DNA of 64,000 nucleotides from assembly GCF_030553305.1 (NCBI RefSeq), contig NZ_JARRAH010000001.1, forward strand, positions 2,170,001-2,234,000, in the 5' to 3' direction. Positions within the stretch are counted from its first letter, which is position 1, and every line of letters starts with the position of its first letter. The translations under genes were made by a program, and so were the position numbers. Under the pieces are notes generated by a model. The model was not told where the DNA came from. It saw only the letters and a list, made by a program, of their open reading frames with translations, and searched no databases. The stretch is from Halomarina ordinaria (GTDB taxonomy: Archaea > Halobacteriota > Halobacteria > Halobacteriales > Haloarculaceae). This document shows, in pieces, positions 43,239 through 61,664 of this stretch.

Positions 43239-44309
43239 ATGAGTCACGAGGAGCAAGCAGAACTCTTTGCGAAATCACTTCTTGTTGGAATTCGGAAAGT
43301 AATTGAGGTTTCTGATTATGATACGGAGGGCTTCCCTCGCTGGACTCGCGCTTCAAATATACGAATTGCAGAAATAAACGGCAGCACGATTATATTTTTT
43401 GAACGAAGTGCGAAAGAGAGCGACCAGGTTATCCAGTACCGAAGTGTTAGTTCGGACGTTGAGTTTGTATTTCCACAGTATACCTCTTCGTGTGATACTG
43501 TCATGTTCCCATTGGGCGAACTAAATGACGGTGACCCTGGTCTTTCATCAATCGCTAGTGTGACATTATCAATAAGTTCTGCAAATCACTGCTTCACCGA
43601 CATTGGTTCTCGGAGCGAGCACTCTGCCCGCGCTTTTCACCATGTAATCGTGCAGTACGAACCTGAAAATCAAATTGAGGCGGTTAGATACATTCCATTC
43701 GCATTGTTTGTTCCTTCGAAATATATTGGCGATTTTCAGTACTTTTGGGATAGTTGTGCTGGAAAGTTGGTAGCACCTTTGACATCGCTTCATGATTCTC
43801 CTGCAGGAAGTTATCGCTCAGAACCGATGGCTGAGAAGGGAATTATGTCTTGTGTAAAAGACACCGTCATCATTCTCGGAAATTACGACGACCCGTATGA
43901 AGACGAATTACTTCAAATAAGAGATTATCTTATTCGGCTAGGATATGATGCTGTCCTTATCAAAGACCTGCCCGCACCTGGGAGTTCGTCACTTGAGCAA
44001 AAAGTTAAATTGTGGGTCAACGCCTCCCGATTTTGTGTTATGATTGACCGAGAGGCGTCTGGTCATATCAAAGAGTATGAAATTGTCAAGAGCGAGCGAA
44101 AACCTCTAGTTTTCCTTCGCCCCGATGGAGATGGTTCTACTTGGATGATTGGTGATGACGAACTAGTTGACTTGAATTACATAAAGACATTTGAATTTTC
44201 AAGAACACCTCTAGAAAAGATGGAAGATGGGCTCAGATGGGCTGAAAACCTGCTAAATGAGCGCGGGAATACATATCCTGAATTCTACCCTTGGAGAGAT
44301 TCTGATTGA
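43239..44309 (+). CDS. AT-rich orphan with TIR-like/Rossmann C-terminal domain
   Basis: This 356-residue protein has an N-terminal part with beta strands (NGSTIIFFERSAKESDQVIQ, near residue 47; SSIASVTLSISSANHCF, near residue 107). The C-terminal part (from residue 207) reads DTVIILGNYDDPYEDELLQ, then LIRLGYDAVLIKDLPAPG, ASRFCVMIDREASGHIKEYE and KPLVFLRPD: alternating strands and helices as in TIR or nucleoside-2-deoxyribosyltransferase-like domains. A Glu in the EYEIVK helix could be a TIR-type catalytic residue. Composition differs from all neighbours, so it was acquired. A defence role (NAD-related signalling) is inference; no known partner is beside it. Confidence 0.6.
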   Translation: MSHEEQAELFAKSLLVGIRKVIEVSDYDTEGFPRWTRASNIRIAEINGSTIIFFERSAKESDQVIQYRSVSSDVEFVFPQYTSSCDTVMFPLGELNDGDPGLSSIASVTLSISSANHCFTDIGSRSEHSARAFHHVIVQYEPENQIEAVRYIPFALFVPSKYIGDFQYFWDSCAGKLVAPLTSLHDSPAGSYRSEPMAEKGIMSCVKDTVIILGNYDDPYEDELLQIRDYLIRLGYDAVLIKDLPAPGSSSLEQKVKLWVNASRFCVMIDREASGHIKEYEIVKSERKPLVFLRPDGDGSTWMIGDDELVDLNYIKTFEFSRTPLEKMEDGLRWAENLLNERGNTYPEFYPWRDSD

Positions 44310-45904: not shown

Positions 45905-46270
45905 ATGAGTTCGACATCGGCGCGAAGCTGTCCGGAGTGCGAGGGGCGACTGCACCGCGAGCGGACCGAGACCGTCTGTGGGCGCTGTGGACTCGTCGTC
46001 GGCGAGGACGCCATCGACCGCGGGCCGGAGTGGCGGTCGTTCGCGGACGACGAGACGAACTCGAAACGGACGGGCGCTCCGCTGACGCGCTCGCGCCACG
46101 ACCGCGGGCTCTCGACCGAGATCGGCTACTCGACGCGCCTGAAGGGGCGAAAGCGCCGACGAGTTGCCCGGATGCGTCGCCATCACAAGTGGAGCGAGAT
46201 TCTGCTAGTATCACATTGTCTCAGAAAGATTAGTTCCCCCGACATTTGTTACATTACTAACAATCATTGA
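45905..46270 (+). pseudogene. Transcription factor B, truncated at an island junction
   Basis: Residues 1-95 are TFB: the zinc ribbon CPEC...CGRCG (near residues 9 and 26) with the B-reader-type IDRGPEWRSF (near residue 37) and RHDRGLSTEIGYSTRLKGRK (near residue 63). After about 46188 the sequence becomes AT-rich and unrelated (KWSEILLVSHCLRKISSP), and a stop follows at 46270. The two cyclin folds (about 200 residues) that bind TBP and DNA are missing. A 121-residue remnant with a ribbon could still bind RNA polymerase, but it is best called a broken gene. The point of break is the left edge of the AT-rich island. Confidence 0.82.
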
Positions 46271-46410
46271 TGTGGTCTTTGAAGACCGACATCTCCGAAC
46301 ATGGTGTAGACGACGAGGTTGAGAAAACTGTACTCTATCGGACCGATGTGGATGCCACCAGTCTGCATACCGCGCAATCCGCCTTGCTTGTCGCTGTCTG
46401 AATCAGTCAT
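46264..46410 (-). CDS. Possible small protein, 48 aa
   Basis: A 48-residue frame begins MTDSDSDKQGGLRGMQTGGI and has a hydrophobic stretch (YSFLNLVVYTMFG). The start is typical of haloarchaeal small proteins. It overlaps the end of the truncated TFB frame on the other strand. No TATA-like run is properly placed, so the call is weak. Confidence 0.3.
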   Translation of the reverse strand: MTDSDSDKQGGLRGMQTGGIHIGPIEYSFLNLVVYTMFGDVGLQRPHQ

Positions 46411-46552
46411 CGTAGTCTCTCGACCAAAGCCGTCGCTGTTGGACGAACAACAATAGTAGGACCTGTCCAGAGAGACGGCATAAGAATACAGTAAATTTCA
46501 TTCTTTCTTCTAGAATATCGTTCCAACAGACGTCACGTTGTATTCCAAAATG
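46411..46552. other. AT-rich spacer in the island, no gene seen
   Basis: The 142 bases between the possible small protein and the membrane protein gene contain AT-rich runs (for example AGTAAATTTCATTCTTTC near 46490). No ORF or RNA gene was seen; it may hold the downstream terminator of the two-gene operon. Confidence 0.4.
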
Positions 46553-48301
46553 CTACGGCAGGCCAGGAAAAATATTCCAGAGGAAGATGTCTATAAGTAG
46601 TATAATTGATATCAGGCTGACTGTCCCTAGCAATAGGTAGTACAAGATGACATCTAAGAGAAAGACATATTCTAGTCTAAACCCGTCCTCTATCCAACCA
46701 ACAGTCTCAAACAGAGAACCCCACCGAGGACTATCAGAACTAGGATTTAATCCGTATTCTGTTAGCTCCTCGTCATCAAAAAATCGCCCATAAAATTGTA
46801 TTGAGTTATCTCGATCATCAATTAGCTTGCCAAATTGTGTTTGTATTCCCCTGATTCGTCGGAATGTTATAAGAACGTAGCCCAAAACAAAGGCCAGAAT
46901 TACAGTCACAACGGTCTCTGTTCCGAACTGCCCACCAAGCTTGAAGTACACACTCGCAGCGATAGCGATAATAAACGCGACTGTACGGAAGATATCCCTC
47001 GACAAGTCATCCATCAACTCAGACCGAAGCGAAGAGAATTTTTCATGAGTGCTAAAAGCACTATCAATAACTTCCCTCCGGAATTCAAAGAATTCATCGA
47101 TACTCTGTTCTAGATAATATCGCCTATTTGACCTCGCTGAACTCTCGATTTCCCCTGCGTTGGTTATCACGTCTGTTAGATTACGTGCAAAGAGCGTCGC
47201 AACGTTCCGTAATACCGATGTCCTATTTTCGACTTCCTGCCCAGAGTGGTAAGCCCACTTATGCAGGGAATACAGAGAATCGGCCAGATCTGAGTCAATC
47301 TTGATTGTATCCGTTGATTCTTCCAGCTCTACATCAAGGGTCGACTTATCCGAAGATAATGAAAAAACGCCTTCTATAAATTGCTTCCCACTAATTCGGA
47401 TACGCCATTTTGAGTCATCTATATGCTCAGCCCGACTTCCGAAAGACAAGAGGGAGTAGACAATGACATATGGATTAAACGCTCTTAGAACGCTAGCGTG
47501 AAACTCTGCATTGTCCCCGGCTAATTCATCGAACTCGAAGAAAACTGGTGGAAGATATTTCCTATCGATATCATCAATTAGTGAGTTTGGCGCTATATCG
47601 TGCTGTGACTGCTGCCATGTGATATCTCGATTAGAAAAATCTCTAATAAAGTCATTTAAAGTATTAATTCCTGATACAGCTAGATTATCACCATAAACGT
47701 ATTCATCCGAATCCAGAACAACAATCAGCAACTTGCTTTTCTCTAGAAAACGGTCGCGGAATTTCTCAGGGGGAACCTCATGCAATTTTGTAATGAAGTA
47801 CTCCCAAGATATATGAAATTCAATTGTTGTGTCGTCCAGACTGAGCTCATCACTTAAGCCGGTAGCAACCCGGGACTTTTCCAGTCCATACTCAAGCTCC
47901 AGGTCAAGGTCATCCCGCTCGATTACCCGACCAAAGATGTTTACTAGCTGCTCACAATCATTGACCCGATTGTCACGGAGTTTCTTAGCCTGGTCCGCGA
48001 AGCTGGGGTCCGAGGGATAAAGGCTATCATGTTCATATTCCTCTCCCTCTTCCTGTTCCGAGCGAATAAAATCTACATCTGGTTCGTACCGAACTAGGTA
48101 CTTGTCCTCTTCGCCTTGGATATGGCAGATAACAGTACTTGGATCGAAATAATTGCTCAGCGCCCGGACATCTGACAAAAGGTCAGAAATTTCCTCCCGA
48201 GTAGAGGGAGATGATTTAAACTTATAATTCCTGACATTTTCAGTCCCGGCCTCCTGCCACTCGTCTACAAATTTAGATACGGCTGTTCCAACCTCTGTCA
48301 T
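46553..48301 (-). CDS. Large membrane protein of the NdpA-like operon
   Basis: This 582-residue protein has a soluble N-terminal part of about 430 residues (acidic, no known motif) and a C-terminal membrane part. Four hydrophobic segments are seen in pairs: TVAFIIAIAASVYFKLGG and TVVTVILAFVLGYVLITF (about residues 440-485), then VFLLDVILYYLLLGTVSLIS and IILLIDIFLWNIFPGL (about residues 545-582). Only 10 nt separate it from the upstream NdpA-like gene, so they are one operon. AT-rich composition sets it apart from the core genome. The pairing of a membrane protein with a DNA-binding partner recalls defence systems such as Kiwa, but no homology to KwaA is claimed. Confidence 0.65.
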   Translation of the reverse strand: MTEVGTAVSKFVDEWQEAGTENVRNYKFKSSPSTREEISDLLSDVRALSNYFDPSTVICHIQGEEDKYLVRYEPDVDFIRSEQEEGEEYEHDSLYPSDPSFADQAKKLRDNRVNDCEQLVNIFGRVIERDDLDLELEYGLEKSRVATGLSDELSLDDTTIEFHISWEYFITKLHEVPPEKFRDRFLEKSKLLIVVLDSDEYVYGDNLAVSGINTLNDFIRDFSNRDITWQQSQHDIAPNSLIDDIDRKYLPPVFFEFDELAGDNAEFHASVLRAFNPYVIVYSLLSFGSRAEHIDDSKWRIRISGKQFIEGVFSLSSDKSTLDVELEESTDTIKIDSDLADSLYSLHKWAYHSGQEVENRTSVLRNVATLFARNLTDVITNAGEIESSARSNRRYYLEQSIDEFFEFRREVIDSAFSTHEKFSSLRSELMDDLSRDIFRTVAFIIAIAASVYFKLGGQFGTETVVTVILAFVLGYVLITFRRIRGIQTQFGKLIDDRDNSIQFYGRFFDDEELTEYGLNPSSDSPRWGSLFETVGWIEDGFRLEYVFLLDVILYYLLLGTVSLISIILLIDIFLWNIFPGLP

Positions 48302-48311
48302 ACTATGTTAC

Positions 48312-49364
48312 CTACTTCTGATAATCTCGCTGTAGCGAAGTACCCCGTACCGTAATGACGCACTCGCCATCATCATTGGACGGTTCAATCACATCAACAC
48401 GGTCAGAGTTTACGAGAGACATCGGAATCTCAACCTTGATGTCTCCACCGTCAATCTTGTAGACGACGGTACTCGGTGCGTTGTTGACATCAATTTGAAC
48501 CTCACTTTCCCCAGCCCCATAGAGAGCGTCATCTACTTCATCCTCATCATATGAATCATTAAGTACCGCTCTTGAGGCTTCATGGACATCAGTATTCTCC
48601 ACAATCCCGCCATCAGTGCCGAGTATACTTGTTCGGAATGTCTGAATATCATCTGGAGAGAGTCCAGTCCCCTCTTTTTCTCTTTTTAGGTCATCTACGG
48701 CGGTGAGGATGTTCTGAGATTGCTCCAGACTTGCACTGCTCGTAATGCATCCTAAGAAGTCCTCAAAATAGTCCGAGTCAGAGTCTTCTTGTAGGAACTT
48801 GACATCGCCATCAAGGTAGAATTCATCCGATCCAATCAGAGGATAAGTACATCCTTTCTGGAAGCTTTCGACTGGCGGTAAGACACCCTCAAGCTCTTCG
48901 TAAGCAAGGTGGCGAGTGTCTGGGTCCAAGCGAGACCTCTCTTCATCATCCAAATCTAATTTGAGAATTCCGACTACGTCTGTTCCGTCCTTGTTCGCGT
49001 GAATCGTAAACAAAACACCGGATGAAGTTCTTCCATCCATTTCATTAATGAGTCTCTTTTTGAACGTCTCAGCTATCGATTCAAATGCATCGTAATCTCC
49101 ATTATCTCCGTCGAGGGCTAAATCCAGCTCCAGTACTCGATTCAGTCGCTCTTGGGTTCCTGAACTCTCATCAGGAAAGTGCCCCAGACCGACCCTACTA
49201 TTGTCTTCTTTGCTAATTACTCTCACCAAATACTTCCGGAAAATATCAATGACGTCTTCATCGATATCCACGGTTCGGGTGCTTTCTATCCAGTCCTCAT
49301 CATCTCCGCTTTCAATATCGTGCTTTACCGGAGAATATGCAATTGCGTTGATGATGATTGGCAT
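48312..49364 (-). CDS. NdpA/YejK-like nucleoid-associated protein
   Basis: This 350-residue protein has the layout of the 37-kDa nucleoid-associated (NdpA/YejK) family. The N-terminal part has SGVLFTIHANKDGTDVVGIL (near residue 115), corresponding to the family's FVLFCHY...LLVAVL core strand. A middle helix has YFEDFLGCITSSASLEQSQN and LTAVDDLKREK (near residues 200-230), and the C-terminus ends with strands IKVEIPMSLVNSDRVDVIEP and CVITVRGTSL (like the YejK INFDAMLL and LTIKGTPP). Whether it binds DNA here is unproven. The ATG at 49364 is used, with AT-rich TATA-like runs about 30 nt upstream. It is the first gene of the operon. Confidence 0.6.
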   Translation of the reverse strand: MPIIINAIAYSPVKHDIESGDDEDWIESTRTVDIDEDVIDIFRKYLVRVISKEDNSRVGLGHFPDESSGTQERLNRVLELDLALDGDNGDYDAFESIAETFKKRLINEMDGRTSSGVLFTIHANKDGTDVVGILKLDLDDEERSRLDPDTRHLAYEELEGVLPPVESFQKGCTYPLIGSDEFYLDGDVKFLQEDSDSDYFEDFLGCITSSASLEQSQNILTAVDDLKREKEGTGLSPDDIQTFRTSILGTDGGIVENTDVHEASRAVLNDSYDEDEVDDALYGAGESEVQIDVNNAPSTVVYKIDGGDIKVEIPMSLVNSDRVDVIEPSNDDGECVITVRGTSLQRDYQK

Positions 49365-49446
49365 ACCCAAGTCAGCTCATTTCACACACATATACTTTGT
49401 TGAATGACTATGGACTGTTATATACCCGAAATCCAAATTGAGTACT
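49365..49446 (-). promoter_or_regulatory. Promoter region of the NdpA-like operon
   Basis: On the minus strand two TATA-like runs are seen: AAAGTATATGTGTG (about 30 nt before the ATG at 49364) and GGGTATATAACAG (about 55 nt upstream). The first has leaderless spacing. A small decayed gene starts on the other strand at 49447. Confidence 0.45.
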
Positions 49447-49790
49447 ATGGTTGAACTGACGTTCGAAGTACTCGTCGACATCGCAGGAGATTATAGCGAT
49501 AGTTCGACGGGTGCAGAGCGGTTCCAATATATCCTCCGAGATGAGCAAACCACGAGGCTAAGAGATAGAACAGTTCCTAAACGAGGTGCTGAACGGGTCT
49601 GAATCATACCACAACCGCGCCCTTCATCACCTGGTATCCGGATGTGCATCGCTCCACTCACCGTCAAAGAAATCACATCCGGCCAAATTTTGCACGATGT
49701 CTTATCGTGAGCTAACATCGCCACCGCTACTCAGCGTACTGTCTCTCGCCTGTTGACCGAATCCACCGTCCAGCGGACGACTGATATTCA
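49447..49790 (+). pseudogene. Decayed gene with frameshift
   Basis: A frame from ATG 49447 reads MVELTFEVLVDIAGDYSDSS and runs 51 codons to a stop at 49602. In another frame the sequence goes on EIEQFLNEVLNGSESYHNRA (about 49570-49630), suggesting a frameshifted remnant. Farther on, in a third frame, ANIATATQRTVSRLLTESTV (near 49710-49770) looks like a helix-turn-helix end. I read this as one or two decayed genes; it is too degenerate to name. Confidence 0.35.
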
Positions 49791-49877
49791 TACACGGGAG
49801 CAGTGCATTAGCGTCTGAGTCCCGTTACGCTCCGTACCGTCTGAGATCAACAGAGACAGTTATCAGAGACCCACCGG
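49791..49877. other. Short spacer, no gene seen
   Basis: Between the decayed region and the TBP stop codon. No feature is recognised; it may hold the terminator of the TBP gene. Confidence 0.35.
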
Positions 49878-50420
49878 TTAGAGAACTTCAGATACCGTCT
49901 CTGTCAAGCTCGCGAAAATCTCCTCAACTGATTCGACGCTCCGACATCCGGTGATAACGACCTTACCCGTAGCGAAGAGCAGCACCACACCTTCAGCGCC
50001 CTCAGGACGATAAATTAGACCAGGGAACTGTTCCGGTTCGTACTCAGTCTTCTCGAGACCCAGCCCGATGGCGAGCGCATTTAGATTGAGGTTCTGGTCT
50101 AGTTCTCCAGTACAGACGTAATTCTGAACGGCGAACCACTCGTCCTCAGGCTCCTCAATAACATCCATATCGGAGAACAGATTCAGAAATCGCTCTCGGA
50201 GCGAGTAGGATTCGTCCTCGGAATCTGCGCCGGTGATGATGAACTTACCCGTGCGGTAGACCGTTATCAGCGGTGCATCCTCCTCGAATCGAAGGTACAT
50301 CCCCGGATACTTGTCCGGGTCGTGGCGAGCGACCGGCTCACCGATATCGTCAGCGAGGCGTTCCAAATCGAGTTCAACATTCAGAGCACCCGACGCGACG
50401 ACATTTACAATCTCTACCAT
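49878..50420 (-). CDS. TATA-box-binding protein (extra TBP paralogue)
   Basis: This 180-residue protein is a TBP with the two-repeat saddle: ALNVELDLERLADDIGEPVA, YPGMYLRF and VYRTGKFIITGADSEDE (repeat 1), then LDQNLNLNALAIGLGLEKTE, FPGLIYRPEGAEGVVLLFAT and GKVVITGCRSVESVEE (repeat 2). It is close to full length. It starts MVEIVNVVASG and is divergent from the type I restriction operon. TBP paralogues, with TFB paralogues, select promoters in haloarchaea; this one is on an island and may serve it. Confidence 0.92.
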   Translation of the reverse strand: MVEIVNVVASGALNVELDLERLADDIGEPVARHDPDKYPGMYLRFEEDAPLITVYRTGKFIITGADSEDESYSLRERFLNLFSDMDVIEEPEDEWFAVQNYVCTGELDQNLNLNALAIGLGLEKTEYEPEQFPGLIYRPEGAEGVVLLFATGKVVITGCRSVESVEEIFASLTETVSEVL

Positions 50421-50563
50421 TCTATCCTCCGGACCACAGTTAAGTCTCGTTTCAATTCTGCTCACCCCTCGTCTATACACTTGCTGTTTTTCGCTCTTTG
50501 TGAGGTATTGTTGAGAGTGATTGTCGGAAGAGCAATTATACCCCGAGTAAAATATAGTGAGTA
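50421..50563. promoter_or_regulatory. Divergent promoter region of TBP and hsdR
   Basis: For hsdR, GAGCAATTATACCCCG (about 50527-50542) has a TATA-like core about 30 nt before the ATG at 50564, and AAAATATAG lies just before the ATG. For TBP the minus-strand region has weaker AT runs. The short 143-base spacing means the two genes may be controlled together. Confidence 0.45.
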
Positions 50564-52786
50564 ATGGCTGACAAAGACACCGACCCCGAAAGAGAAGCTC
50601 GGGAGATCATCGACACCCAGCTAAAGGAAGCAGGCTGGGTAGACCTTGAGGAACGCGGATGCGACACGGGATTCAAACGGGAATATCCCACCTCTTCTGG
50701 TCCCGTCGATTACGCCCTCTTCATCTCAGGGAATCCCGTCGCCGTCGTGGAAGCGAAGGAAGCCCGGAAAGACGCCTACGCTGCTCTTACCCAGTCCAAA
50801 CGATACGCACGGGATATTGGTACCGGGGAGAACTACTCCGGGCGGTATGGCGTTCCATTCGTGTTCACCGCGAACTCTGATGAGGTTTGGTTTCAGGACC
50901 TTCGGAAAGAGGCTCCGCGTGAACGAAAACTCCGTGGCTTCCATCGGCCCGAGGGAGTTGAACAGTTCCTCAAAACCGATTACAAGGCTGCAAAGGAATG
51001 GTTAGAAGACACGCCCATTCGAGACTCCGACCCGGACCTCTGGGACAATCAGTTCGAAGCCATTCAGAACATCGAGGAGGCGATTCACCGGAACAAGCGC
51101 CGGATGCTCGTTCAGATGGCGACGGGAACCGGGAAAACTCGTATGGCCTGCGCTCAGACCTACCGTCTCCTGAAATCCCGTTACGTCAATAGGGTTCTCT
51201 TCCTCGTTGACCGGAACAGCCTCGGGAATCAAGCAGAGAGTGCGTTCAAAAACTACGATGTCGGGCCGGCGATGAAGCTGGGCGACATCTACATCATCGA
51301 GCAGGTTGAGGACGGCATCTACCCCGAGAATGCGGATATCGTCATCTCCACTCTCCAGGGGATGTACAGTATGCTCGAAAATCACGACGAACTCGATATC
51401 CCGCAGGACGCGTTCGACTTCATCATCTCCGACGAGTCCCACCGCTCTATCTACGGCGACTGGCGCGTCGTTCTGAATCACTTCGACGCCCTCCAACTCG
51501 GTCTGACAGCGACCCCGGCGACTCACACGCTCAGCTACTTCAACGAGAATTGGGTCTACCAATACGGCTACTGGCAGGCCGTTGATGACGGCCACGTCGT
51601 CCCCTACGAGACGTACCGGATTCAGACGGGCATTACCATGGATGGCCTCTACTACGAGGATGAGGAGTACAATCCAGAAGACCTCGAAAACAAAATCACA
51701 GTCCCCTCTACGAACCGCCTCATAGCTGAAGAGTTCCGTAAGCAGTCGGGCGAGGACGAAAAGACGCTGGTATTCGCTAAGAATGACCGCCACGCTACCG
51801 AGTTAGAGAAGATATTCAGAGAGGTCTACTCGGACAAGGACGACCGCTACGTCAAGAAAATCACCTACACGACCGACGACCCCAACGGCTGGATTAAGCG
51901 GTTCAGGAACCAGAAGTACCCGAAAATCGCGGTGACTGTCGATATGGTCAGCACGGGAGTCGACGTCAAGCCCATCGAGAACATCATCTTCGTTCGGCCA
52001 ACTCGTTCCGCCGTCCTCTACAATCAGATGATTGGCCGGGGGACTCGAACCTGCGACGAGATTGGTAAGGAGAAGTTCACCATCTACGACTGCATCGGCA
52101 TCGTCGACTACTTCAGCGAAACGCCGCCGTTCAACACGTATCGACCGGATGGGACCGTCGACGAGGAAAAATCCGGGAAGAAGAAGCGAGAGGACGACGA
52201 AGACGATGAAATTGTCGTCGCCGACGACGTGCAGGACCACCTCGAATTCTCGGGGTATATGTTCGAGACGAAGGACGGTCAAGAGCTACGGCCGGACGAC
52301 TACGTCACCCACTTCGAGCGGTACGTGAGGCAGAACCAGTCCGAGATTGAAGCAATAAAGATAATAATGGAGTCCCCGGAGGCCCTCAAACGTAAGCACC
52401 TCCGGGAACTCAATCGGAAACTTCAGGACGAGCCAGAGAAGTTCTCCGAAGAGAAGCTGCAAAAGGCCTACGGGCAGGAGATGATCGACATCATCGGGTT
52501 CATCAAACACGCCCTCGGCGAAGACGAGTTCCCCACGACGGAAGACCGCGTTGAGAAAGCCTTCAACGCCTGGATACAGGATAAGGACTTCACCGAACAG
52601 GAGCGAGAGTGGCTAAACATGATTCAGCGTCACTTCGTGCAGGAGAAGGTCATCAAGAAGGAGGACTTCAACCGTATTCCGTTCTCCCGGCGCGGAGGTT
52701 GGAGGTCTGCTGCGAAAGCGTTCGGTGGCGAAGAGAAACTAAAAGACATGATTCACGAACTTAACGAGGAAGTGATTCTAGCATGA
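50564..52786 (+). CDS. hsdR: Type I restriction enzyme, HsdR subunit
   Basis: This 740-residue motor/nuclease subunit has a N-terminal nuclease-like domain with VDYALFISGNPVAVVEAKEA (near residue 50, the E-x-K site) and SF2 helicase motifs: QMATGTGKTR (near residue 184), VLFLVDRNSL (near residue 212), IISDESHRS (near residue 287, DESH box), TATPA (near residue 312) and VSTGVDVKPIENIIFVRPT followed by RGTRTC (near residues 462-495). It is shorter than classical HsdR (about 1000) but complete in motifs. It starts the operon; its stop overlaps hsdM by 4 nt. Confidence 0.93.
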   Translation: MADKDTDPEREAREIIDTQLKEAGWVDLEERGCDTGFKREYPTSSGPVDYALFISGNPVAVVEAKEARKDAYAALTQSKRYARDIGTGENYSGRYGVPFVFTANSDEVWFQDLRKEAPRERKLRGFHRPEGVEQFLKTDYKAAKEWLEDTPIRDSDPDLWDNQFEAIQNIEEAIHRNKRRMLVQMATGTGKTRMACAQTYRLLKSRYVNRVLFLVDRNSLGNQAESAFKNYDVGPAMKLGDIYIIEQVEDGIYPENADIVISTLQGMYSMLENHDELDIPQDAFDFIISDESHRSIYGDWRVVLNHFDALQLGLTATPATHTLSYFNENWVYQYGYWQAVDDGHVVPYETYRIQTGITMDGLYYEDEEYNPEDLENKITVPSTNRLIAEEFRKQSGEDEKTLVFAKNDRHATELEKIFREVYSDKDDRYVKKITYTTDDPNGWIKRFRNQKYPKIAVTVDMVSTGVDVKPIENIIFVRPTRSAVLYNQMIGRGTRTCDEIGKEKFTIYDCIGIVDYFSETPPFNTYRPDGTVDEEKSGKKKREDDEDDEIVVADDVQDHLEFSGYMFETKDGQELRPDDYVTHFERYVRQNQSEIEAIKIIMESPEALKRKHLRELNRKLQDEPEKFSEEKLQKAYGQEMIDIIGFIKHALGEDEFPTTEDRVEKAFNAWIQDKDFTEQEREWLNMIQRHFVQEKVIKKEDFNRIPFSRRGGWRSAAKAFGGEEKLKDMIHELNEEVILA

Positions 52787-54180
52787 GCGAAAACGGACGG
52801 ATGGACGTCAAGAACAAGATTTGGGACATTTGCGGTATTCTGCGCGACGATGGGATGCACATCGGGACCTACGTCGAGCAAGTAACAGTTCTACTCTTCC
52901 TGAAAATGATGGAGGAGAAGGAGACGTTTGGGGAAGAACCAATAGAAATCCCAGATGAGTGCAACTGGGAGACGCTAAAGCAGAAAGACGGAGAAGAGCT
53001 CCTGTCGCATTATAACACGACGGTACTGCCTCAACTCGGCGAGCAGGACGGAATTATCGGTGAAATTTTCGCACGGGTGAATAGTCAATTCAGAACTCCT
53101 GTGAATCTCCGGCGAGCTGTACGCGAGATAGACGAGATAAATTGGTCTGAGATTGATACTGACGTGAAGGGAGCAGCTTACGAATCCCTTCTTGAGAAGT
53201 ACGCCGAAGAGGCAAAAGGTGCAGGTCAGTATTTCACTCCGAGGGCAGCTATCAAAGCTGTCGTAGAAGCTGTTGACCCAGACAACGACGACAAAATCCA
53301 CGACCCCGCTGCGGGGACTGGTGGTTTCTTAATCCACGCGTTTGAGCATATCTTGGATAAAACGAACGAGGGTTTAGACCTCTCTCGCGAAGAGCGTCAA
53401 GCACTGATGACAGAGAATCTCTCTGGAAGAGAACTTGTGCCGGAAACTCGCCGACTCGGTCTTATGAACCTCGCTCTCCACGACCTGCAGCCCGAAAATT
53501 TCGAAGTCGGTGACTCGCTAGCTGCTGGTCCCCATACTGAGGAAAGATATGACGTCATTCTCACCAACCCACCCTATGGGGGGAACCAGCAGAAAGAACC
53601 TACTCGGGATGATTTTATGGTTGAGACGAAGAAACCTGAGCTCAATTTTCTTCAGCATTGTATGACACTTCTAAACGCTGGTGGAAAGTGTGGAATTGTC
53701 GTGCCTGACGGTGTGCTATTTCAAGGGGGACAAGCCGAGCGTGTGCGTGAAAACCTACTAAGAAATTTTGACCTACATACAATTCTTATCCTTCCGATTG
53801 GAGCATTTCATCCGTATACGAACGTCACGACAAACGTGGTATTCTTTGAGAATGGCGGGACCACGGAAGATGTTAGCTTCTATGACTTACGTACAAGCGT
53901 AGAGAAGATTAAAAAGAGTAATCCACTCACAAAGGACCACTTTGAGGACTTCCTGGATAATTTTGGTTTAGAAAAAGACGATGGAAGGTATTTCGAGATC
54001 TCTTTAGAAGAGGTAGAACGTAATGACTACTCGCTCAATTATAAGAAATACAGGGATTTCGAGGATGACGGAGATGAGACACCGCCTCCAGAGGAACTCA
54101 TTACAGAACTACTTTCGCTTCAAGAAACAATCAAAGACAATTCTGAATCAATACTAGCAGAATTAGAGGAGGATGAGTAG
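52783..54180 (+). CDS. hsdM: Type I DNA methyltransferase, HsdM subunit
   Basis: This 465-residue N6-adenine methyltransferase has DPAAGTGGFLIHAF (near residue 174, AdoMet motif I, with GTGGF), AGQYFTPR (near residue 145) and ILTNPPYGG (near residue 258, the NPPY catalytic motif IV). The N-terminal helical domain precedes. It overlaps hsdR and abuts hsdS directly. Confidence 0.95.
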   Translation: MSENGRMDVKNKIWDICGILRDDGMHIGTYVEQVTVLLFLKMMEEKETFGEEPIEIPDECNWETLKQKDGEELLSHYNTTVLPQLGEQDGIIGEIFARVNSQFRTPVNLRRAVREIDEINWSEIDTDVKGAAYESLLEKYAEEAKGAGQYFTPRAAIKAVVEAVDPDNDDKIHDPAAGTGGFLIHAFEHILDKTNEGLDLSREERQALMTENLSGRELVPETRRLGLMNLALHDLQPENFEVGDSLAAGPHTEERYDVILTNPPYGGNQQKEPTRDDFMVETKKPELNFLQHCMTLLNAGGKCGIVVPDGVLFQGGQAERVRENLLRNFDLHTILILPIGAFHPYTNVTTNVVFFENGGTTEDVSFYDLRTSVEKIKKSNPLTKDHFEDFLDNFGLEKDDGRYFEISLEEVERNDYSLNYKKYRDFEDDGDETPPPEELITELLSLQETIKDNSESILAELEEDE

Positions 54181-55368
54181 ATGAATTGGGAGCAAGTACC
54201 AGACCACTGGGAGAGCAAAAAGCTGAGCGAAATTGGAGAAATCTATTCCGGAGGAACTCCTGACCGCGACAATCCGAATTACTTCGGAGGAGATATTCCG
54301 TGGCTGAGACTGAAAGATGCGAAGCAATTCTATGTCTCTACCTCAGACGAAAAGATAACACAAGAAGGTTTAGAAAATAGTAGCGCCCAGTTGCTCCCTG
54401 AAGGTTCAGTGATAGTTTCAACAAGGGCGACGATTGGCGAAGTCACTATTGCGAAAAGGCAAGTGACCACTAATCAAGGTTTCAAGGCGGTGTATCCACA
54501 GAAAGCAGACTCCGAATTTGTTGCTTACTTCCTATCCTCAATAACAGATGAGTTAGAGAACTTAGGTAGGACTACTACCTATCCTGAGGTAAACAAAACT
54601 CAATTCAGTAATATTGAGATACCACTTCCATCAATTTCTGAACAACGCGCTATCGTTAAGAAGCTGAATTCAATCTTCGAAAAGCTAAATGAGTCGAACG
54701 AGACACAGTCACACGCGGAAGACATCGCAAGGAAAGTCCTGAATTCTGCAATCAAACGTCTCATAGATAGTGCATACAAGTCGTCTGAACAAGTTAAGGT
54801 AGAAGACGTTTGTGACAAAATCAAGAATGGGGGGACACCAAAGAGGTCAAACGAAAGCTATTGGGGGGGTAATATCCCGTGGCTGAAGTCGGGCGAGTTA
54901 AAAAATTCTATTTTATATGATTCTGAGGAATATATGACAGAGAAAGGCCTGTCAGAGAGCAGCGCTAAGATGTTCTCACCAGATACTGTATTGGTCGCAA
55001 TGTATGGAGCGACGCGTGGAGAAACTGGCTTCATCAAAAAGGAGATGTCTACTAATCAGGCTGTATGTGGCTTATCTGCTGATGAGAGCTTGTGTGAACC
55101 CAAGTATCTCTGGTATTGCCTACGAACTCTACAGAGCAAATTAGCTTCACAAGGTCGAGGAGGTGGACAGGACAATATAAATCAGACAACAATTCGGAAT
55201 ACGATAATCCCACTCCCATCTATTCAAAGGCAACGTAAAATAATTGAACGTATTGAATTAGTTGAAGAGCGAGCAAATGAAATACGTGATGCCTCAAACC
55301 GTATTGGAGAGATATTGGATATCCTTCCAAAAGCAGTATTTAACAAGGCATTCAGTGGGAACTTGTAG
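54181..55368 (+). CDS. hsdS: Type I specificity subunit, HsdS
   Basis: This 395-residue protein has two target-recognition domains: first WLRLKDAKQFYVS and IYSGGTPDRDNPNYFGGDIP (residue 20-50), then IKNGGTPKRSNESYWGGNIP and VDWLKSGELK-type sequence (near residue 215-240). Conserved helices separate and end them (LNSIFEKLNESNETQSHAED and RIELVEERANEIRDASNRIG), so it is an uninterrupted two-half HsdS. It abuts hsdM. The recognition sequence cannot be read from it. Confidence 0.93.
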   Translation: MNWEQVPDHWESKKLSEIGEIYSGGTPDRDNPNYFGGDIPWLRLKDAKQFYVSTSDEKITQEGLENSSAQLLPEGSVIVSTRATIGEVTIAKRQVTTNQGFKAVYPQKADSEFVAYFLSSITDELENLGRTTTYPEVNKTQFSNIEIPLPSISEQRAIVKKLNSIFEKLNESNETQSHAEDIARKVLNSAIKRLIDSAYKSSEQVKVEDVCDKIKNGGTPKRSNESYWGGNIPWLKSGELKNSILYDSEEYMTEKGLSESSAKMFSPDTVLVAMYGATRGETGFIKKEMSTNQAVCGLSADESLCEPKYLWYCLRTLQSKLASQGRGGGQDNINQTTIRNTIIPLPSIQRQRKIIERIELVEERANEIRDASNRIGEILDILPKAVFNKAFSGNL

Positions 55369-55597
55369 ACATTGAAAATGTCCCAGATAGTCAGGCGCAA
55401 ACCGCATTAGGAGATTTTTGCCGCACACAGAATTTATACTAAACGAACTGTGTCAGCGCTCATATTCAGCCTCAAAACTCACGTTGTGCGTTACTGTCTG
55501 CAACCTATCATTCTTCGATAAATGAGCGAAATGAAGGGTCGGGAAAAGTTCTGCCTTGGCACTCATAGTCCGCGCTCAAATTGAAAACAAGCAGAAC
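55369..55597. other. Boundary spacer between restriction operon and integrase, no gene seen
   Basis: The 229 bases lie between convergent hsdS and integrase genes. AT-rich at first, then more even near the integrase. No tRNA fragment, att-type repeat or ORF was identified; an attachment site here would be expected but cannot be fixed without the other end of the element. Confidence 0.4.
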
Positions 55598-56716
55598 TCA
55601 GATACCGAATTTAAATATCTGCTCCCGGTAGAGAGGTTCGATATCTTCGTAGTACGTATGAATGTAGTCGTCAATCGCTCCTCGGTCATCAAGCGAGCTA
55701 TTCTGAGTCGTATCCCCCCGCATGTACTTTATCAGCTCTCGGTTGAGGTCTCGTTCCACCCGCCAATACGTCGTGAAGCGATGACGGCCGAAGTGACTAG
55801 TCACTCCACGGTGCTCTTCGGTTTCTGCATACTCTGGTCTGAAGGTTCGTATCCAGCAGCTGTTGAGATACTCCTGGTCGAGTTGACTGTGGCTCGTCTT
55901 CGAGAGGAAGATCCACCCTTCCTCAGTGTCGGGCCGGATGAGCAAGTAGCGTAGAAGCGCGTGCCGCGCTTCGTCGTCAAGGGGGAGGACACGCGGGCAT
56001 CGCGATTTGTTACCCTGGCGCTCATCGCGCGAGGGAATATAGACAGCATTAGGACGGCTATCGAGTGCTGGATGCGACCCCAACTCGCGGTAGTGCTGTT
56101 GGAGATCTGCATTCTGTATACTGATGTCACGAATCGTGATATTACATAGTTCGGACGCCCGTAGCCCAAGTTTGAACTGGAGGACAATGGCCGCACGGTC
56201 GCGGACGTTCGTGACTCCGTGCAGAATCTCACCGAGTGTCTCGATGGGAATACGAGGCGGCTCCTTGAGCGGTGGGCGGCTCAAATCCACCTTCGAAAGG
56301 ACGAGCGTGAACGGGTTGTAGTCCTGGGGGTGAGGAAACGCTGGCGCGTCTTGCCAGTACTCATAGGCCTTGTTCAAACGACGGAGCTTCGTCCGTACTG
56401 TATCTGGCTGATTGCCGCAATCGTCTCGACAGTACTGAAGGAAACCCACGACGTGCTTGTCGTTCGGACAGGCTGGATGACGACCCTCCCGGGCCATATA
56501 CCCGCTCCACTGCTCGAAAACCCAATCATAGGCTTTGTGCGTGCTAGGCGCGAGCCCCTTACTGTCGAGGACATCCGAAACGAAGAGGTCGAATGGGTCG
56601 ACCGCCATCCCTTCGAACGTCGTAGCATACGCAGCTAACGGGTCGAGGTCTCGACCGAACGCCGCAGCCACTTCTGCCCGTTGTGCATCGACGTCCGGGT
56701 GAACGACATCAGTCAT
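55598..56716 (-). CDS. Tyrosine recombinase (integrase)
   Basis: This 372-residue phage-type integrase has an N-terminal core-binding domain (STHKAYDWVFEQWSGYMARE, near residue 60) and a C-terminal catalytic domain. LGLRASELCNI (near residue 185) holds the first catalytic Arg; SHFGRHRFTTYWRVE (near residue 310) holds the HxxR motif; the nucleophile Tyr is among YEDIEPLY near the C-terminus. The ATG at 56716 overlaps the previous gene stop by 8 nt, so four genes form one operon. It is the best marker that the rest of the window is an integrated element. Confidence 0.93.
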   Translation of the reverse strand: MTDVVHPDVDAQRAEVAAAFGRDLDPLAAYATTFEGMAVDPFDLFVSDVLDSKGLAPSTHKAYDWVFEQWSGYMAREGRHPACPNDKHVVGFLQYCRDDCGNQPDTVRTKLRRLNKAYEYWQDAPAFPHPQDYNPFTLVLSKVDLSRPPLKEPPRIPIETLGEILHGVTNVRDRAAIVLQFKLGLRASELCNITIRDISIQNADLQQHYRELGSHPALDSRPNAVYIPSRDERQGNKSRCPRVLPLDDEARHALLRYLLIRPDTEEGWIFLSKTSHSQLDQEYLNSCWIRTFRPEYAETEEHRGVTSHFGRHRFTTYWRVERDLNRELIKYMRGDTTQNSSLDDRGAIDDYIHTYYEDIEPLYREQIFKFGI

Positions 56717-57191
56717 ATTTCCTCGCCTCCGCTTTTCCGGAGAGTTTCGCATCCCAAATCCGACGAGATGCGTCGCATTCGACGACGGCCATGAGTGGTG
56801 GATGGTAAACGTGCGGGTAGTCTGTGTGCGACTGGAGCCACGAGTAGAAGTGTTCGACTCGTACCCAGTACTCTCTGTAGACGGTCTTGGCGCTCCGTCC
56901 CTCCAGGAGGTCCTCGCACCACGTATTCACGTCCGCTGGAGTAGCGAGTGCATGGTGACGGTCGCGGGCAGCCATATGTGCTTTCCACGACCGCTCTGCT
57001 TTCGATAGAGACGCCCGATAGTGCTTGGAATCGAACGACTCCGGGCGACTCGCTACAAACCCTGCCCAAATATCCTGACCGTCATACACGGTCGCGTAAT
57101 TACTGAGTCGATACCGGGCGGGGACATCGGAGAGTCGCTTGAAAACCCCCATCCGTCGAACCGGGTCGGCAGATTTGGGTGTGACGCTCAT
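56709..57191 (-). CDS. Integrase-like core-binding (SAM-like) domain protein
   Basis: This 160-residue protein has only the N-terminal part of a tyrosine recombinase: ALATPADVNTWCEDLLEGRS and VYREYWVRVEHFYSWLQSHT (near residue 100), a core-binding domain, but no catalytic domain. It overlaps both the gene before (3 nt) and the integrase after (8 nt). It may bind att sites with the integrase or be the first half of a split recombinase. Confidence 0.72.
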   Translation of the reverse strand: MSVTPKSADPVRRMGVFKRLSDVPARYRLSNYATVYDGQDIWAGFVASRPESFDSKHYRASLSKAERSWKAHMAARDRHHALATPADVNTWCEDLLEGRSAKTVYREYWVRVEHFYSWLQSHTDYPHVYHPPLMAVVECDASRRIWDAKLSGKAEARKYD

Positions 57192-57652
57192 AGGCCACCC
57201 TCTGGAGAATCGATATCGAGCGAGCGATACGTCCCATCAGCGGTACGAACCTGAAGTACCTCTCCTTCGAGGTCATCCAAGTGCCGACTCACCCGACTAG
57301 GGGCAGTATCGATGACCTGTTGGACGATCTCTTCATAGGATACACCAGGATTCTGCTCGACATATCGGCGAATCGTCCGCCGTTCACCGCCGTGGACTTG
57401 GTCCTCCAGGCGTTGGATACGCTTGCGGGCGTGGTCAAGTTCGGCCTTGAGGTCGTTCCGCTGCTCGCGCAACTCATGAGCGGGTTCATCAGGCGTTACC
57501 GCTACCTCGAATTTCTTTAGCCCAGCCTCGATCATCGCCTGCATGAACTCCGAGACACTCATCTCGTAGTCGGCAGCGTGTGCCTTCCACCGGGCGTATT
57601 GGGTCTTCGTCGGGTAGGCCATCGCCGGTTGTGTATCGCTGCTATGGCTCAT
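57188..57652 (-). CDS. Coiled-coil winged-helix DNA-binding protein
   Basis: This 154-residue protein has an N-terminal ribbon-helix-like segment (TKTQYARWKAHAADYEMSVS), a coiled coil (ELREQRNDLKAELDHARKRI, near residue 65) and a winged-helix-like C-terminus (PGVSYEEIVQQVIDTAPSRV, near residue 110). It likely regulates the integrase operon. The ATG at 57652 is used; an inner ATG at 57622 also fits. It overlaps both neighbours. Confidence 0.62.
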   Translation of the reverse strand: MSHSSDTQPAMAYPTKTQYARWKAHAADYEMSVSEFMQAMIEAGLKKFEVAVTPDEPAHELREQRNDLKAELDHARKRIQRLEDQVHGGERRTIRRYVEQNPGVSYEEIVQQVIDTAPSRVSRHLDDLEGEVLQVRTADGTYRSLDIDSPEGGL

Positions 57653-57884
57653 CGGACTCACACACCTCCGTGATAGCAATATCGTATACTTCTGGGAAGA
57701 ACTCGCGCAGGAATTCGATGTCCTCGCCGAGGTGCTTTCGGATTCGAGTACGGACAATCGATTGGACCTTGTATCGGTAATTATCCGAAACATCAGCCTC
57801 GCCCGAGAGGATATCGCGCTCGCGAACTGTGAGGAGTGCCCGTCCTTCGTCGGTCATTAACAGGTCTGTTCGTTCGACGTGCAT
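57642..57884 (-). CDS. Small helical protein, first gene of the integrase operon
   Basis: This 80-residue protein reads MHVERTDLLMTDEGRALLTV at the start and ends in SDEP. Its pattern (RDILSGEADVSDNYRYKVQS, IVRTRIRKHL) suggests a small helical regulatory or DNA-associated protein of haloarchaeal plasmids. No family name is certain. The start ATG is 57884; the stop overlaps the next start by 11 nt. Confidence 0.6.
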   Translation of the reverse strand: MHVERTDLLMTDEGRALLTVRERDILSGEADVSDNYRYKVQSIVRTRIRKHLGEDIEFLREFFPEVYDIAITEVCESDEP

Positions 57885-58082
57885 AGGGATTACCCTATAG
57901 CGTAATAGCACGCCGAACACGATAAGACTTACTCTATTCAGTATACACTGTATGAAGTACATACTGCATGAAGTAATAGCTAAGCGCTCAGAGTCCGTAG
58001 TAGTAGTTAGCGACGCCGGCTCAATTGGTTCGTGAGCGACCTGGAGAGACGATCGAGCGGGCGTTGCTGAGGGGATCAAATA
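57885..58082. promoter_or_regulatory. Divergent control region of the integrated element
   Basis: The 198-base gap contains two tandem 13-base repeats, ACTGTATGAAGTA (57947-57959) and ACTGCATGAAGTA (57963-57975), spaced 16 bases apart and differing at one position. ATTAC...GTAAT (57890-57907) is a short inverted repeat just before the leftward ATG. TATA-like runs face both ways. This may be the switch region controlling integrase versus other genes. Confidence 0.55.
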
Positions 58083-58310
58083 ATGTCAAGCACAGAACAA
58101 TCGCAAAGAGGCCTTCGAGGGGGCGACTACACTGAAATAAACATCGCCGAGAAGGACAGTGGACCAAACTACACATACCACGTAGAACCAGCGGCCCAGG
58201 GAGGTGCTCGATACGCACGATGTATGGGGTGCGGACGCGAACTCATCACCTCGTTTGGAGTAGACCAGCTCGTTCACGCTGACGACTGTCCAGTTCGCTC
58301 CAACTGCTGA
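58083..58310 (+). CDS. Small Cys-rich protein, possible zinc ribbon
   Basis: This 75-residue protein has CMGC (near residue 47) and CPVRSNC (at the C-terminus), with a His-Ala-Asp-Asp between, so it may bind one zinc. Such small zinc proteins are frequent in haloarchaeal viruses and plasmids. It is divergent from the integrase operon. Family unknown. Confidence 0.6.
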   Translation: MSSTEQSQRGLRGGDYTEINIAEKDSGPNYTYHVEPAAQGGARYARCMGCGRELITSFGVDQLVHADDCPVRSNC

Positions 58311-58445
58311 GGGATTGGCTTTTAATGACAGAAAAACGAAAGACGCCTATAGGGTTTCAGAAATTGTAGAAAAATATCTCGGAGGAGTACGGGGGTAGTG
58401 CAGGATAGCATAGAATCCAGTTGCCCCCGCAGGGGTAGAGACGAG
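58311..58445. other. Spacer, no gene seen
   Basis: 135 bases between the Cys-rich gene and the terminase-like gene. No ORF or RNA is supported. Confidence 0.35.
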
Positions 58446-59051
58446 CTATGACTCACAGAATCCATTGGCCCAGAGCGGGAGTGGTGCAAAGAGATTGAGT
58501 TGCTCTCCCAGTCGGAGTAGCTGCCTATCAAGCGCCATATCACGATCTAAAACGGGATTGATAACGGACCGGGACCGAGATACTGCGAGCTGGTCACTCG
58601 CCAATTCAATGGTCTGTTCGTCAGCAATGCTAAGACCACGGGCCTCTGCGTGGTCGGTGAGATCAGCACGAGCGAGCGCTTGTTGATAGAATATAACAGC
58701 ATAGCGGCGAGCTAGCCGCGAACGGTCAGCATCATCGAGCGTAGGAGCTGTAATCTGCGACCGGCGATATACGGCTGTACTAAGCTCATCAACCCACGCT
58801 TGTGCAGTCCCAGACAGGCGTTCATCCAAGAGTACCGGGTCACAGAACCCTCCATGAATTAGCGCGTTCGTATTCAACGGCGGAGCGCCACCTCCACGAT
58901 TACCGGCCGCGTTTTGATTCCCGATGGGCGCCCCATGTCCCGGCGGTGCGCCATCAGGAGTATGCATAAAACACGTTTCGCCAGTTCGGTGAGGGGCGAG
59001 TCGACGACGGCAGGGACCAGAGGGGGTGGACGAACCACATCGAGGGGACAT
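58446..59051 (-). CDS. Terminase-small-subunit-like / phage-type protein
   Basis: This 201-residue protein has a Cys-His N-terminus (RCGSSTPSGPCRRRLAPHR, then ETCFMHTPDG), a glycine-rich stretch HGAPIGNQNAAGNRGG (near residue 43) and long helices (SQITAPTLDDADRSRLARRY). The HGAPxGNxNA pattern is widespread in phage terminase small subunits and related DNA-binding proteins. No large terminase is in the window, so packaging is not proven. The start ATG is 59051, with a TATA-like GATATTCATATC about 35 nt upstream. Confidence 0.55.
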   Translation of the reverse strand: MSPRCGSSTPSGPCRRRLAPHRTGETCFMHTPDGAPPGHGAPIGNQNAAGNRGGGAPPLNTNALIHGGFCDPVLLDERLSGTAQAWVDELSTAVYRRSQITAPTLDDADRSRLARRYAVIFYQQALARADLTDHAEARGLSIADEQTIELASDQLAVSRSRSVINPVLDRDMALDRQLLRLGEQLNLFAPLPLWANGFCES

Positions 59052-59493
59052 ACTCACGATGTGTATGTACTCGCTAGATATGAATATCACTCTTAGAATA
59101 TACTATCAAATCTATAAAAATGGGAAGTAACCTCCGGACTCTCTGACTTTGTGTTTGTTTCTGAGATTGCCGTGAGTGTACGTGGGAGAGGGAGTTCTAG
59201 GTATTTCACCAATGACGAGCACACCATTCGAACGTGCTCTACTCACGCGCATGAGTCGAGAAACAGAGGGGGTGGGAAAAATCGGACCCCCCTTGATTCT
59301 CCCTGTGAGGCTGTGAAGAAGAATCCCATCTCCTGGACGCGTCAGTCTAGACGAATCTCGAGGATGGAAGGACCCTTCAAAGATGTACTCTCACGCGCGT
59401 ATACAGTACTGCGACATTCCCTTATCACCCGCTCAAAATCGTATCCACTGACAGTACGATATATCCGAAGATTGAGCGCCAATCGTATGCGAA
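59052..59493. other. 442-base spacer, no gene seen
   Basis: The region lies between the primase gene stop and the terminase-like gene. AT-rich runs near 59085-59125 serve as the terminase-like gene's promoter. Short open frames have no family resemblance or promoter. There are many TATA-like runs (for example near 59395-59470) but no gene to assign. Confidence 0.4.
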
Positions 59494-61662
59494 TCACCCA
59501 CCGAGGAGGTCCAAGAGTACATCGTCGACCCATTCATCGGGTGGAGTTTCGCCAGCTGGGGAATCCGAAGTAGACCGGGTCTGTTCAAGAATTCGACGCG
59601 GACTCCGCTTTGTCGTTCCAGTTCCCCGTCGCTGGCGGTTATGGTCGATCGATACCTCGTCCAGCGCTTCGAGAGTGGCGTTGTATACCCAGGGAGCAGG
59701 GAGGTCCCAGTATGTTGCTCCATCTTCGCTCGTCTTCTCTATGAGGTCGTCCCGGGAACAGGTCCCGAACGTGACCGCAGCGTCACAGAGCGCCCAGAGG
59801 GGGGTGCGCTCGTAGATAGTCCCGTCTGGTTTCTTCGTCCCCCGCTCGGGGACATGTGCTGGAACGTCAAAGCCGAAGACTTCGCGTAGATACTGCACTC
59901 CACGTCGCCAATCGGCACCACTGGCTGCGCCTCCATGGTACGAGTCCCCTTCAACAGCGATGAGCGCCATCTTGGGCTTCCCGATGAGGGCATTACCGGC
60001 ACCGGTATCAATCGCGAATCCACCAGCAAGGTTCACGAACGTCGCCGAACCGTTGCTGTCCGGCCCCCACACAGGGTAGAAATGGCGCTTGTCAGATCCT
60101 CCCCCCTTGTTGTCGTTCCATGCCGTGACGATCGTTGCCTCTGCGACAGCCTCGGTATCGAGGTCATCGATTGCTTTCTCGACTTCATGGAAATAGGGAG
60201 TGACCGACCCCGGTATCCCGGACGGGGAATCGCCCGTCTCGTCGAAGACCCTCGGATCCGTTTGGCGACGGAGAGTGGCTTCCTCGGTTGCTTGTCGCTT
60301 CTCCGTGACCGCCTCTTCATGTGCGTTGACCCAGGCCTGTACGGTCCCCTGGACGGTCTCCCCTCTAACCGTGTACGCCTCGGGGAACAATAATGCAGCC
60401 AACCGACGCGCGGCGGCACGGAATTCCTCGCGATCTGCGGTGAACGTCGCCGCCCACCGCCGGGCGGCATCGATGTGTTCGGCGGTCACGTCCTGAAGTG
60501 GAAGTCGCGCGTACCGTGGAGAGGATGGGCTGAGAGGGTGGACGACGACGTCGTAGGTCGTGTGCACCGACAATGGCGGTTTGAACTGACGGTTTTTGTT
60601 GTTCACGGCGTCGAACTTCAGCATGTCTACGGCCGAGGGCGTCGACTCCAGGAAGCCGGCCTCTACTTCACCGAGCCACTGGTTGAAGCGGGTCACGAGA
60701 TCGTCTACGAACGCTCCGCGAGACTCCGGACGGACCGCGAGCGAGTCGAGAGCGTCGAAGAACGGGCGTGTCACTGCAGGAGGAAGCATGACATAGAAGC
60801 CACCTCCAGAGTCGAGACAGAAGATACAGCCACGCTCGTCTGTGAGGGTGGTAAACCGGTCGACCGTGAACTCAATCGCGGTCTCGACCGTCGAGCGGTC
60901 GAACGAGTCAGTAGTTACCGCTTGGTCGTCGTGGCGCGACGCCTTGACCTCGTCGTTGAGATCGACATCGACGAATAGCGACAGCGCTTCGATGTCGGCG
61001 TAGCCTGGAAGCGGGTTATTAGTCCCCCAGGTCTCAGAGGCCCCGTCGAACCACTCGGTCTGTTCCGTCTCATTGTTCCACCGACCGGGGGTCCAAGCGT
61101 CAAGGAGGAACGACGCCGAGGTGTACGTCGTAGTAGTGTAGTACGAGCGAGTCAACCGCTCGTTGTACTCCGGCCAGTCGACCGTCGCGCACATCGGCCG
61201 GCCGATGAATGTGGTATCCGAGGTCTGGAGTTCCGCCGGGAGAGCCTCATCAGATGTCTTCTTACGATACCAGTGACGGTGGTCGGGAACTGCCCCCGCG
61301 AGGAGCAATTCGCCCTTCGCCTCGTAGCTTCCGAGCTCTTCAAAGAGTTCACGCACACCAGAGCGAGCATAGTGAGCGGTGGGGGAGAGTGTCTCGTGTC
61401 CAGCGTCGCCGTTGAAGTGACAGCGAGTCGCCGCTGCTCCATCGTCCTCTCGAACGCGCCCACTCCCTGTACAATCGAATGGTACGGTCTCGGTGCTCGT
61501 TTTGTCGGCGATGACCGTCGCGACATGGACTCCAGCGGCGGGCGGAAGTAAGAATCGGCCGAGTATTTGCGGTATCGATGCGTCCGGATGTTCGGTGACG
61601 AACCGTCCGACAGCTGCCTCCTGGTCCGGGGATAAACCGAGGTGCGATTCAGAAGCGTCCAT
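59494..61662 (-). CDS. AEP-superfamily primase/replication protein
   Basis: This 722-residue protein has an archaeo-eukaryotic primase-type core: LSLFVDVDLND (near residue 229) is the hhDhD metal motif, CLDSGGGFYVMLPPA (near residue 283) the position of the SxH motif, with Tyr where His is expected, and SVHTTYDVVVHP (near residue 365) the third strand. The N-terminal part has a His-rich area (HRHWYRK) and the C-terminal part a possible helicase-associated or winged domain. It would start DNA replication of the element. The altered His is notable. It lies 2 nt after the helicase gene stop. Confidence 0.7.
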   Translation of the reverse strand: MDASESHLGLSPDQEAAVGRFVTEHPDASIPQILGRFLLPPAAGVHVATVIADKTSTETVPFDCTGSGRVREDDGAAATRCHFNGDAGHETLSPTAHYARSGVRELFEELGSYEAKGELLLAGAVPDHRHWYRKKTSDEALPAELQTSDTTFIGRPMCATVDWPEYNERLTRSYYTTTTYTSASFLLDAWTPGRWNNETEQTEWFDGASETWGTNNPLPGYADIEALSLFVDVDLNDEVKASRHDDQAVTTDSFDRSTVETAIEFTVDRFTTLTDERGCIFCLDSGGGFYVMLPPAVTRPFFDALDSLAVRPESRGAFVDDLVTRFNQWLGEVEAGFLESTPSAVDMLKFDAVNNKNRQFKPPLSVHTTYDVVVHPLSPSSPRYARLPLQDVTAEHIDAARRWAATFTADREEFRAAARRLAALLFPEAYTVRGETVQGTVQAWVNAHEEAVTEKRQATEEATLRRQTDPRVFDETGDSPSGIPGSVTPYFHEVEKAIDDLDTEAVAEATIVTAWNDNKGGGSDKRHFYPVWGPDSNGSATFVNLAGGFAIDTGAGNALIGKPKMALIAVEGDSYHGGAASGADWRRGVQYLREVFGFDVPAHVPERGTKKPDGTIYERTPLWALCDAAVTFGTCSRDDLIEKTSEDGATYWDLPAPWVYNATLEALDEVSIDHNRQRRGTGTTKRSPRRILEQTRSTSDSPAGETPPDEWVDDVLLDLLGG

Positions 61663-61664
61663 TC

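Follow-up and report, generated by a model that had tools for sequence, protein, structure and literature searches.

Kiwa is a defence system in which KwaA senses at the membrane and KwaB binds injected DNA without cleaving it (review, PMC12904381). Canonical Kiwa is present in haloarchaea: of 146 genomes, 9 contained KwaB (PF16162), in most cases preceded by KwaA, and the haloarchaeal KwaA was about 180-220 aa long with several membrane helices, mostly three or four. A second system close to the locus described here comes from DefensePredictor (NF053868, DS1_1), in which an NA37 protein with a YejK domain has a validated role in defending E. coli against phages (PMC13092281). E. coli YejK has rplY and radD as neighbours, with no operonic membrane partner of the kind reported below in the stretch seen.

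We analyzed a window of 64,000 nucleotides from Halomarina ordinaria, in which a sequence-only reading had pointed to two AT-rich genes, 10 bases apart, as a possible antiviral or anti-plasmid module. Both ORFs were found, gene 1 (48312-49364) preceding gene 2 (46553-48301) on the minus strand with a spacer of 10 bp (48302-48311), and their GC content is 0.46 and 0.43, respectively, vs. 0.70 in the left flank. Gene 1 encodes 350 aa from a conserved ATG, or 352 aa if translation starts at the TTG at 49370. Translation likely begins at the ATG at 49364, since every one of the 11 homologues conserves the methionine that is Met3 when the ORF is read from the TTG. A TATATAA motif at 49418-49424 on the same strand, noticed by eye ~55 bp upstream of gene 1, is a possible archaeal TATA element. 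Both ORFs are conserved as an ordered pair across genera, which rules out chance ORFs. Invariant residues include D189 and K191 in gene 1 and R365 and N366 in gene 2.

Gene 1 is a true member of the NA37/YejK (NdpA) family, as its overall layout had suggested, with sequence profile and fold in agreement over nearly the whole length of the protein. Residues 31-344 matched PF04245 in Pfam (40 bits, E = 4e-10, cut-off 24.6), and the only significant PDB match of a structural model (pLDDT 69), for which 11 homologues from haloarchaea were used, was E. coli YejK, 9be2 (Foldseek E = 9.3e-8, probability 1.00; VIA Z = 13.5 over 292 aligned residues, with an rmsd of 9.4 that reflects hinged or low-confidence parts). 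Sequence identity between gene 1 and E. coli YejK is only ~15%. Matches to Spermine_synth and REV1_C fell below the cut-off and were dismissed. The protein is a putative DNA binder. Its likeness to the DefensePredictor system is that of one NA37 protein in a defence setting to another, and it does not belong to NF053868 itself, for which the NCBIfam match was weak and confined to residues 190-232 (15.8 bits, E = 0.005), far under the cut-off of 330 bits.

Gene 2 encodes a protein of 582 aa predicted to lie in the membrane. The sequence-only reading had described a soluble part followed by four C-terminal membrane segments; the soluble part of ~435 residues stands, whereas hydropathy and a structural model of fair confidence (pLDDT 79) agree on three helices (residues 437-455, 462-480, and 543-575), not four. 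The basic RRIRG stretch after the second helix is consistent with a cytoplasmic N-terminus. No family scored above its cut-off in Pfam, NCBIfam, or PADLOC, and no match was found among the sequences of solved structures. In fold searches of the PDB and BFVD, the soluble N-terminal part had no significant match, the list being filled by the helical C-terminus. Since gene 2 has no recognised domain, its role is read from its topology. Neither gene 2 nor the pair is present in the defence libraries compared.

The sequence-only reading had likened the pair to Kiwa ahead of any search, with the caution that the proteins were not claimed to be KwaA and KwaB, and both the parallel and the caution hold. 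Like the pair, Kiwa is a two-gene system that combines a protein with membrane helices and a DNA-binding-type protein of ~320-350 aa, and it occurs in the same archaeal order. The gene order is, however, reversed, KwaA standing before KwaB, and KwaA has ~200 aa and mostly 3-4 helices, whereas gene 2 adds a large soluble part to its three. Gene 1 had no match to the KwaB domain (PF16162, DUF4868) at E <= 1 in Pfam, and none was found anywhere in the genome that contains the window. Profile comparisons with hhalign likewise returned no relationship, neither between gene 1 and haloarchaeal KwaB (E = 0.27, probability 0.2%) nor between gene 2 and haloarchaeal KwaA (12 columns covered only). In structure, matches to KwaB within residues 1-208 of gene 1 form the next tier after YejK for the N-terminal domain, with three of the four listed KwaB entries of the PDB among the top eight matches; the alignments to 9mrx, 9mtn, and 9nyu (Z = 5.4, 5.0, and 4.7, ~130 residues each) are weak, as common arrangements can also give a Z of ~5, and other entries reach this value on a different small helical part. 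We therefore rejected the identification of the pair as Kiwa, given no KwaB domain, no relationship to KwaA, the reversed order, and only a weak fold match, and we regard a fold common to gene 1 and KwaB as possible.

The two genes behave as one unit. Among 392 genomes of the order Halobacteria, gene 2 was found in 12, one of them a fragment at a contig edge, and gene 1 in 14; in all 11 genomes with an intact gene 2, gene 1 lies directly upstream on the same strand (hypergeometric P = 5e-19, ignoring relatedness). Spacing in 14 pairs ranged from -11 to +14 bp, consistent with a single transcript, and the distance matrices of the two proteins were strongly correlated (r = 0.96, 0 of 10,000 permutations), a sign of coupled divergence. 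Carriers include Halolamina pelagica, Haloarcula amylovorans, Halomicroarcula rubra, Halorussus litoreus, and Halorubellus salinus, and the pair is on plasmids in Haloarcula marina and Halobaculum magnesiiphilum. Gene 1 occurred without gene 2 in three genomes: in one (G172) it is truncated, with no gene 2 remnant, and is likely a decayed copy; in the other two (G299 and G130) a solo NA37 gene adjoins metabolic genes. Diverged pairs were found in two nonhaloarchaeal members of the same phylum, which indicates that the pair predates haloarchaea or has moved beyond them. In G501 (gene 2: E = 5e-44) the spacing is again 10 bp and the surroundings are ordinary genes such as CDC48 and a chemotaxis receptor, and in G485 (NA37: E = 1.6e-28; gene 2: E = 8.5e-5) the genes overlap by 1 bp and gene 2 has the three-helix tail as well. 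We found no relatives of the pair in viral contigs and none of gene 2 on bacterial plasmids.

Other arrangements of NA37 genes were seen in passing. In G485 (L060, 10300-12877), the gene after the pair overlaps it and encodes a large protein that may be a third component there, with a weak signal for STAND-NTPase and TPR. In another family of the phylum (L061, 8039-10171), an NA37 gene has a different partner 9 bp downstream, a RelA/SpoT-like GTP diphosphokinase, and solo NA37 proteins with no membrane partner were observed on clostridial plasmids and prophage-like plasmids (L081, L082, and L083).

The distribution of the pair is patchy (~3% of genomes, 12 genera), and copies from different families are 95-97% identical in one case (G058 and G269) and 68-94% identical in others (G169, G285, and G026). 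This patchiness, together with the 95-97% identity across families and the copies on two plasmids, indicates horizontal transfer. Gene 2 of the window is itself more distant, with only 33-37% identity to its nearest sampled relatives. The pair is a genuine module of two genes that is conserved and moves horizontally.

In the window, the pair is cargo of an integrated, AT-richer element of ~20 kb, where it occupies the left end; the element splits a TFB gene. The broken TFB gene of the sequence-only reading was verified by Pfam and genome search: the N-terminal zinc-ribbon part (45905-46190, plus strand) is cut by the element, and the cyclin-repeat part lies on the same strand past the window end (G000:C1:2236363-2236899, ~66.3-66.9 kb in window coordinates). 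The element, delimited by the GC step and the split TFB, covers 46190-64000 within the window and has its right edge at ~66.3 kb; no direct repeats of at least 10 bp were found at its ends. Upstream of the pair, the element carries a gene for a TATA-binding protein (TBP; 49878-50480, minus strand; PF00352, E = 5.8e-45), then the neighbouring type I restriction-modification operon, in which Pfam recognised hsdR, hsdM, and hsdS (50564-55368, plus strand; EcoEI_R_C, N6_Mtase, and Methylase_S), and a tyrosine-recombinase integrase (55598-56752, minus strand; PF00589, E = 1.6e-10). A UvrD-like helicase was also noticed by eye. It is curious that an element disrupting a TFB gene carries a TBP gene. 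Left of the split TFB, an AT-rich ORF of 356 aa (43239-44309) had no Pfam or PADLOC match; judged by eye, the C-terminal half resembles a TIR or Rossmann domain.

Side-by-side recurrence near defence genes, the test put forward with the sequence-only reading, was borne out: the two genes adjoin in all 11 intact gene 2 copies, and defence genes recur around the pair. In a census of 105 flanking ORFs at 14 pair loci (raw counts, top 25 families listed), the matches listed included three GmrSD-type and four PD-(D/E)XK proteins and two each of HsdR, N6-methylase, HsdS, BrxC, DrmD-like (i.e., DISARM-like), and DUF1156/PLD anti-phage families. PglX and PglZ were further defence neighbours. By these raw counts, the pair is recurrently located in defence islands or operons.

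One of these locations, the most telling, links the pair to Kiwa. In G070 (L033), the pair lies within a type 5 BREX operon, between the second brxC (brxC2) and pglX (BREX-5 PglX, 2516 bits), and the same slot holds KwaA-KwaB in G006 and KwaB in G003, where the flanking genes are 50-53% identical to those of G070 (second brxC: 53%); the pair is seen in this slot in a single genome, and Kiwa in a single BREX lineage whose members are closely related (~90% identical). In 20 further BREX-5 upstream regions the slot was variable, being empty in some and otherwise holding an OLD/AriA-like ATPase, a PDC-S11 candidate, or uncharacterised genes; proteins with CasR/Csa3-type matches were also among the cargo at the loci compared (L033, L073, L077, and L114-L133). 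Because the slot varies in this way across BREX-5 operons, the pair and Kiwa are alternative cargo of one defence slot. BREX-5 thus hosts the pair in G070, but the pair is not a BREX component, since in the remaining operons of the survey the slot is empty or carries different cargo, and most pairs are located outside BREX-5. The brxC2-pglX slot could be mined for new defence modules.

The pair travels as a unit, is found among anti-virus genes, and in one genome fills the slot that Kiwa has in others, and for these reasons it is probably an undescribed anti-virus system on the Kiwa plan. A defence function of some kind is likely. That the pair is a mobile antiviral or anti-plasmid module working like Kiwa, by membrane-held, YejK-type capture of DNA without cutting, is our preferred reading, held tentatively at close to an even chance. 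Under this proposal the large cytoplasmic domain of gene 2 would hold gene 1 at the cell membrane, and, once infection occurs, the two proteins together would capture incoming DNA, whose replication or expression would be blocked without cutting. The mechanism is proposed by analogy with Kiwa and the YejK-domain defence protein of E. coli, and we infer physical contact between the two proteins, DNA binding, membrane sensing, and the absence of a nuclease step.

The main rival, which we consider rather unlikely, is abortive infection, in which the YejK-type protein would sense invading or replicating DNA and trigger the membrane protein, so that a pore or membrane disruption stops the cell. A soluble domain followed by C-terminal membrane helices is a usual layout of membrane effectors, and gene 2 has this layout; NA37 proteins are, moreover, nucleoid-associated by family. 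For the long-helix/membrane region of gene 2, CorA channels gave the best alignment (Z = 9.4 over 120 residues), but a Z of 9 is below the meaningful level of the tool for helical bundles, and the resemblance of the long helices may reflect merely a common arrangement. No pore motif was identified, and the description of Kiwa, with which the pair shares its slot, is of a system that binds DNA and does not permeabilise (PMC12904381).

Alternatively, the pair could aid its own mobile element, by silencing, partition, or membrane attachment of DNA, instead of defending the host. The window copy as end cargo of an integrated element, other copies on plasmids, and the frequency of solo NA37 proteins on bacterial plasmids and prophage-like plasmids would all agree with such a role, which is nevertheless improbable, given copies within a BREX operon and beside several unrelated restriction-modification systems, with no shared element backbone. 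Least probable is a housekeeping tether between nucleoid and membrane whose defence neighbourhood is incidental: E. coli YejK is a chromosomal nucleoid protein and the G501 pair lies among ordinary genes, but the distribution disfavours a housekeeping role, the pair being confined to a small and patchy set of genomes and transferred between families.

A broader extension of the Kiwa-like proposal, which we regard as doubtful, is that a single DNA-binding fold gave rise to both YejK/NA37 and KwaB as distant branches and was joined more than once to membrane proteins that are unrelated to each other; the pair would then define an archaeal family of its own, with immunity by membrane-anchored trapping of DNA. 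If true, it would explain why YejK-type proteins appear in defence. If the pair works as proposed, it would add an archaeal membrane-linked antiviral system to those known, one in which DNA binding falls to a relative of an ordinary nucleoid protein whose role in E. coli is not settled, and it would connect YejK-type proteins with Kiwa in a way that can be tested.
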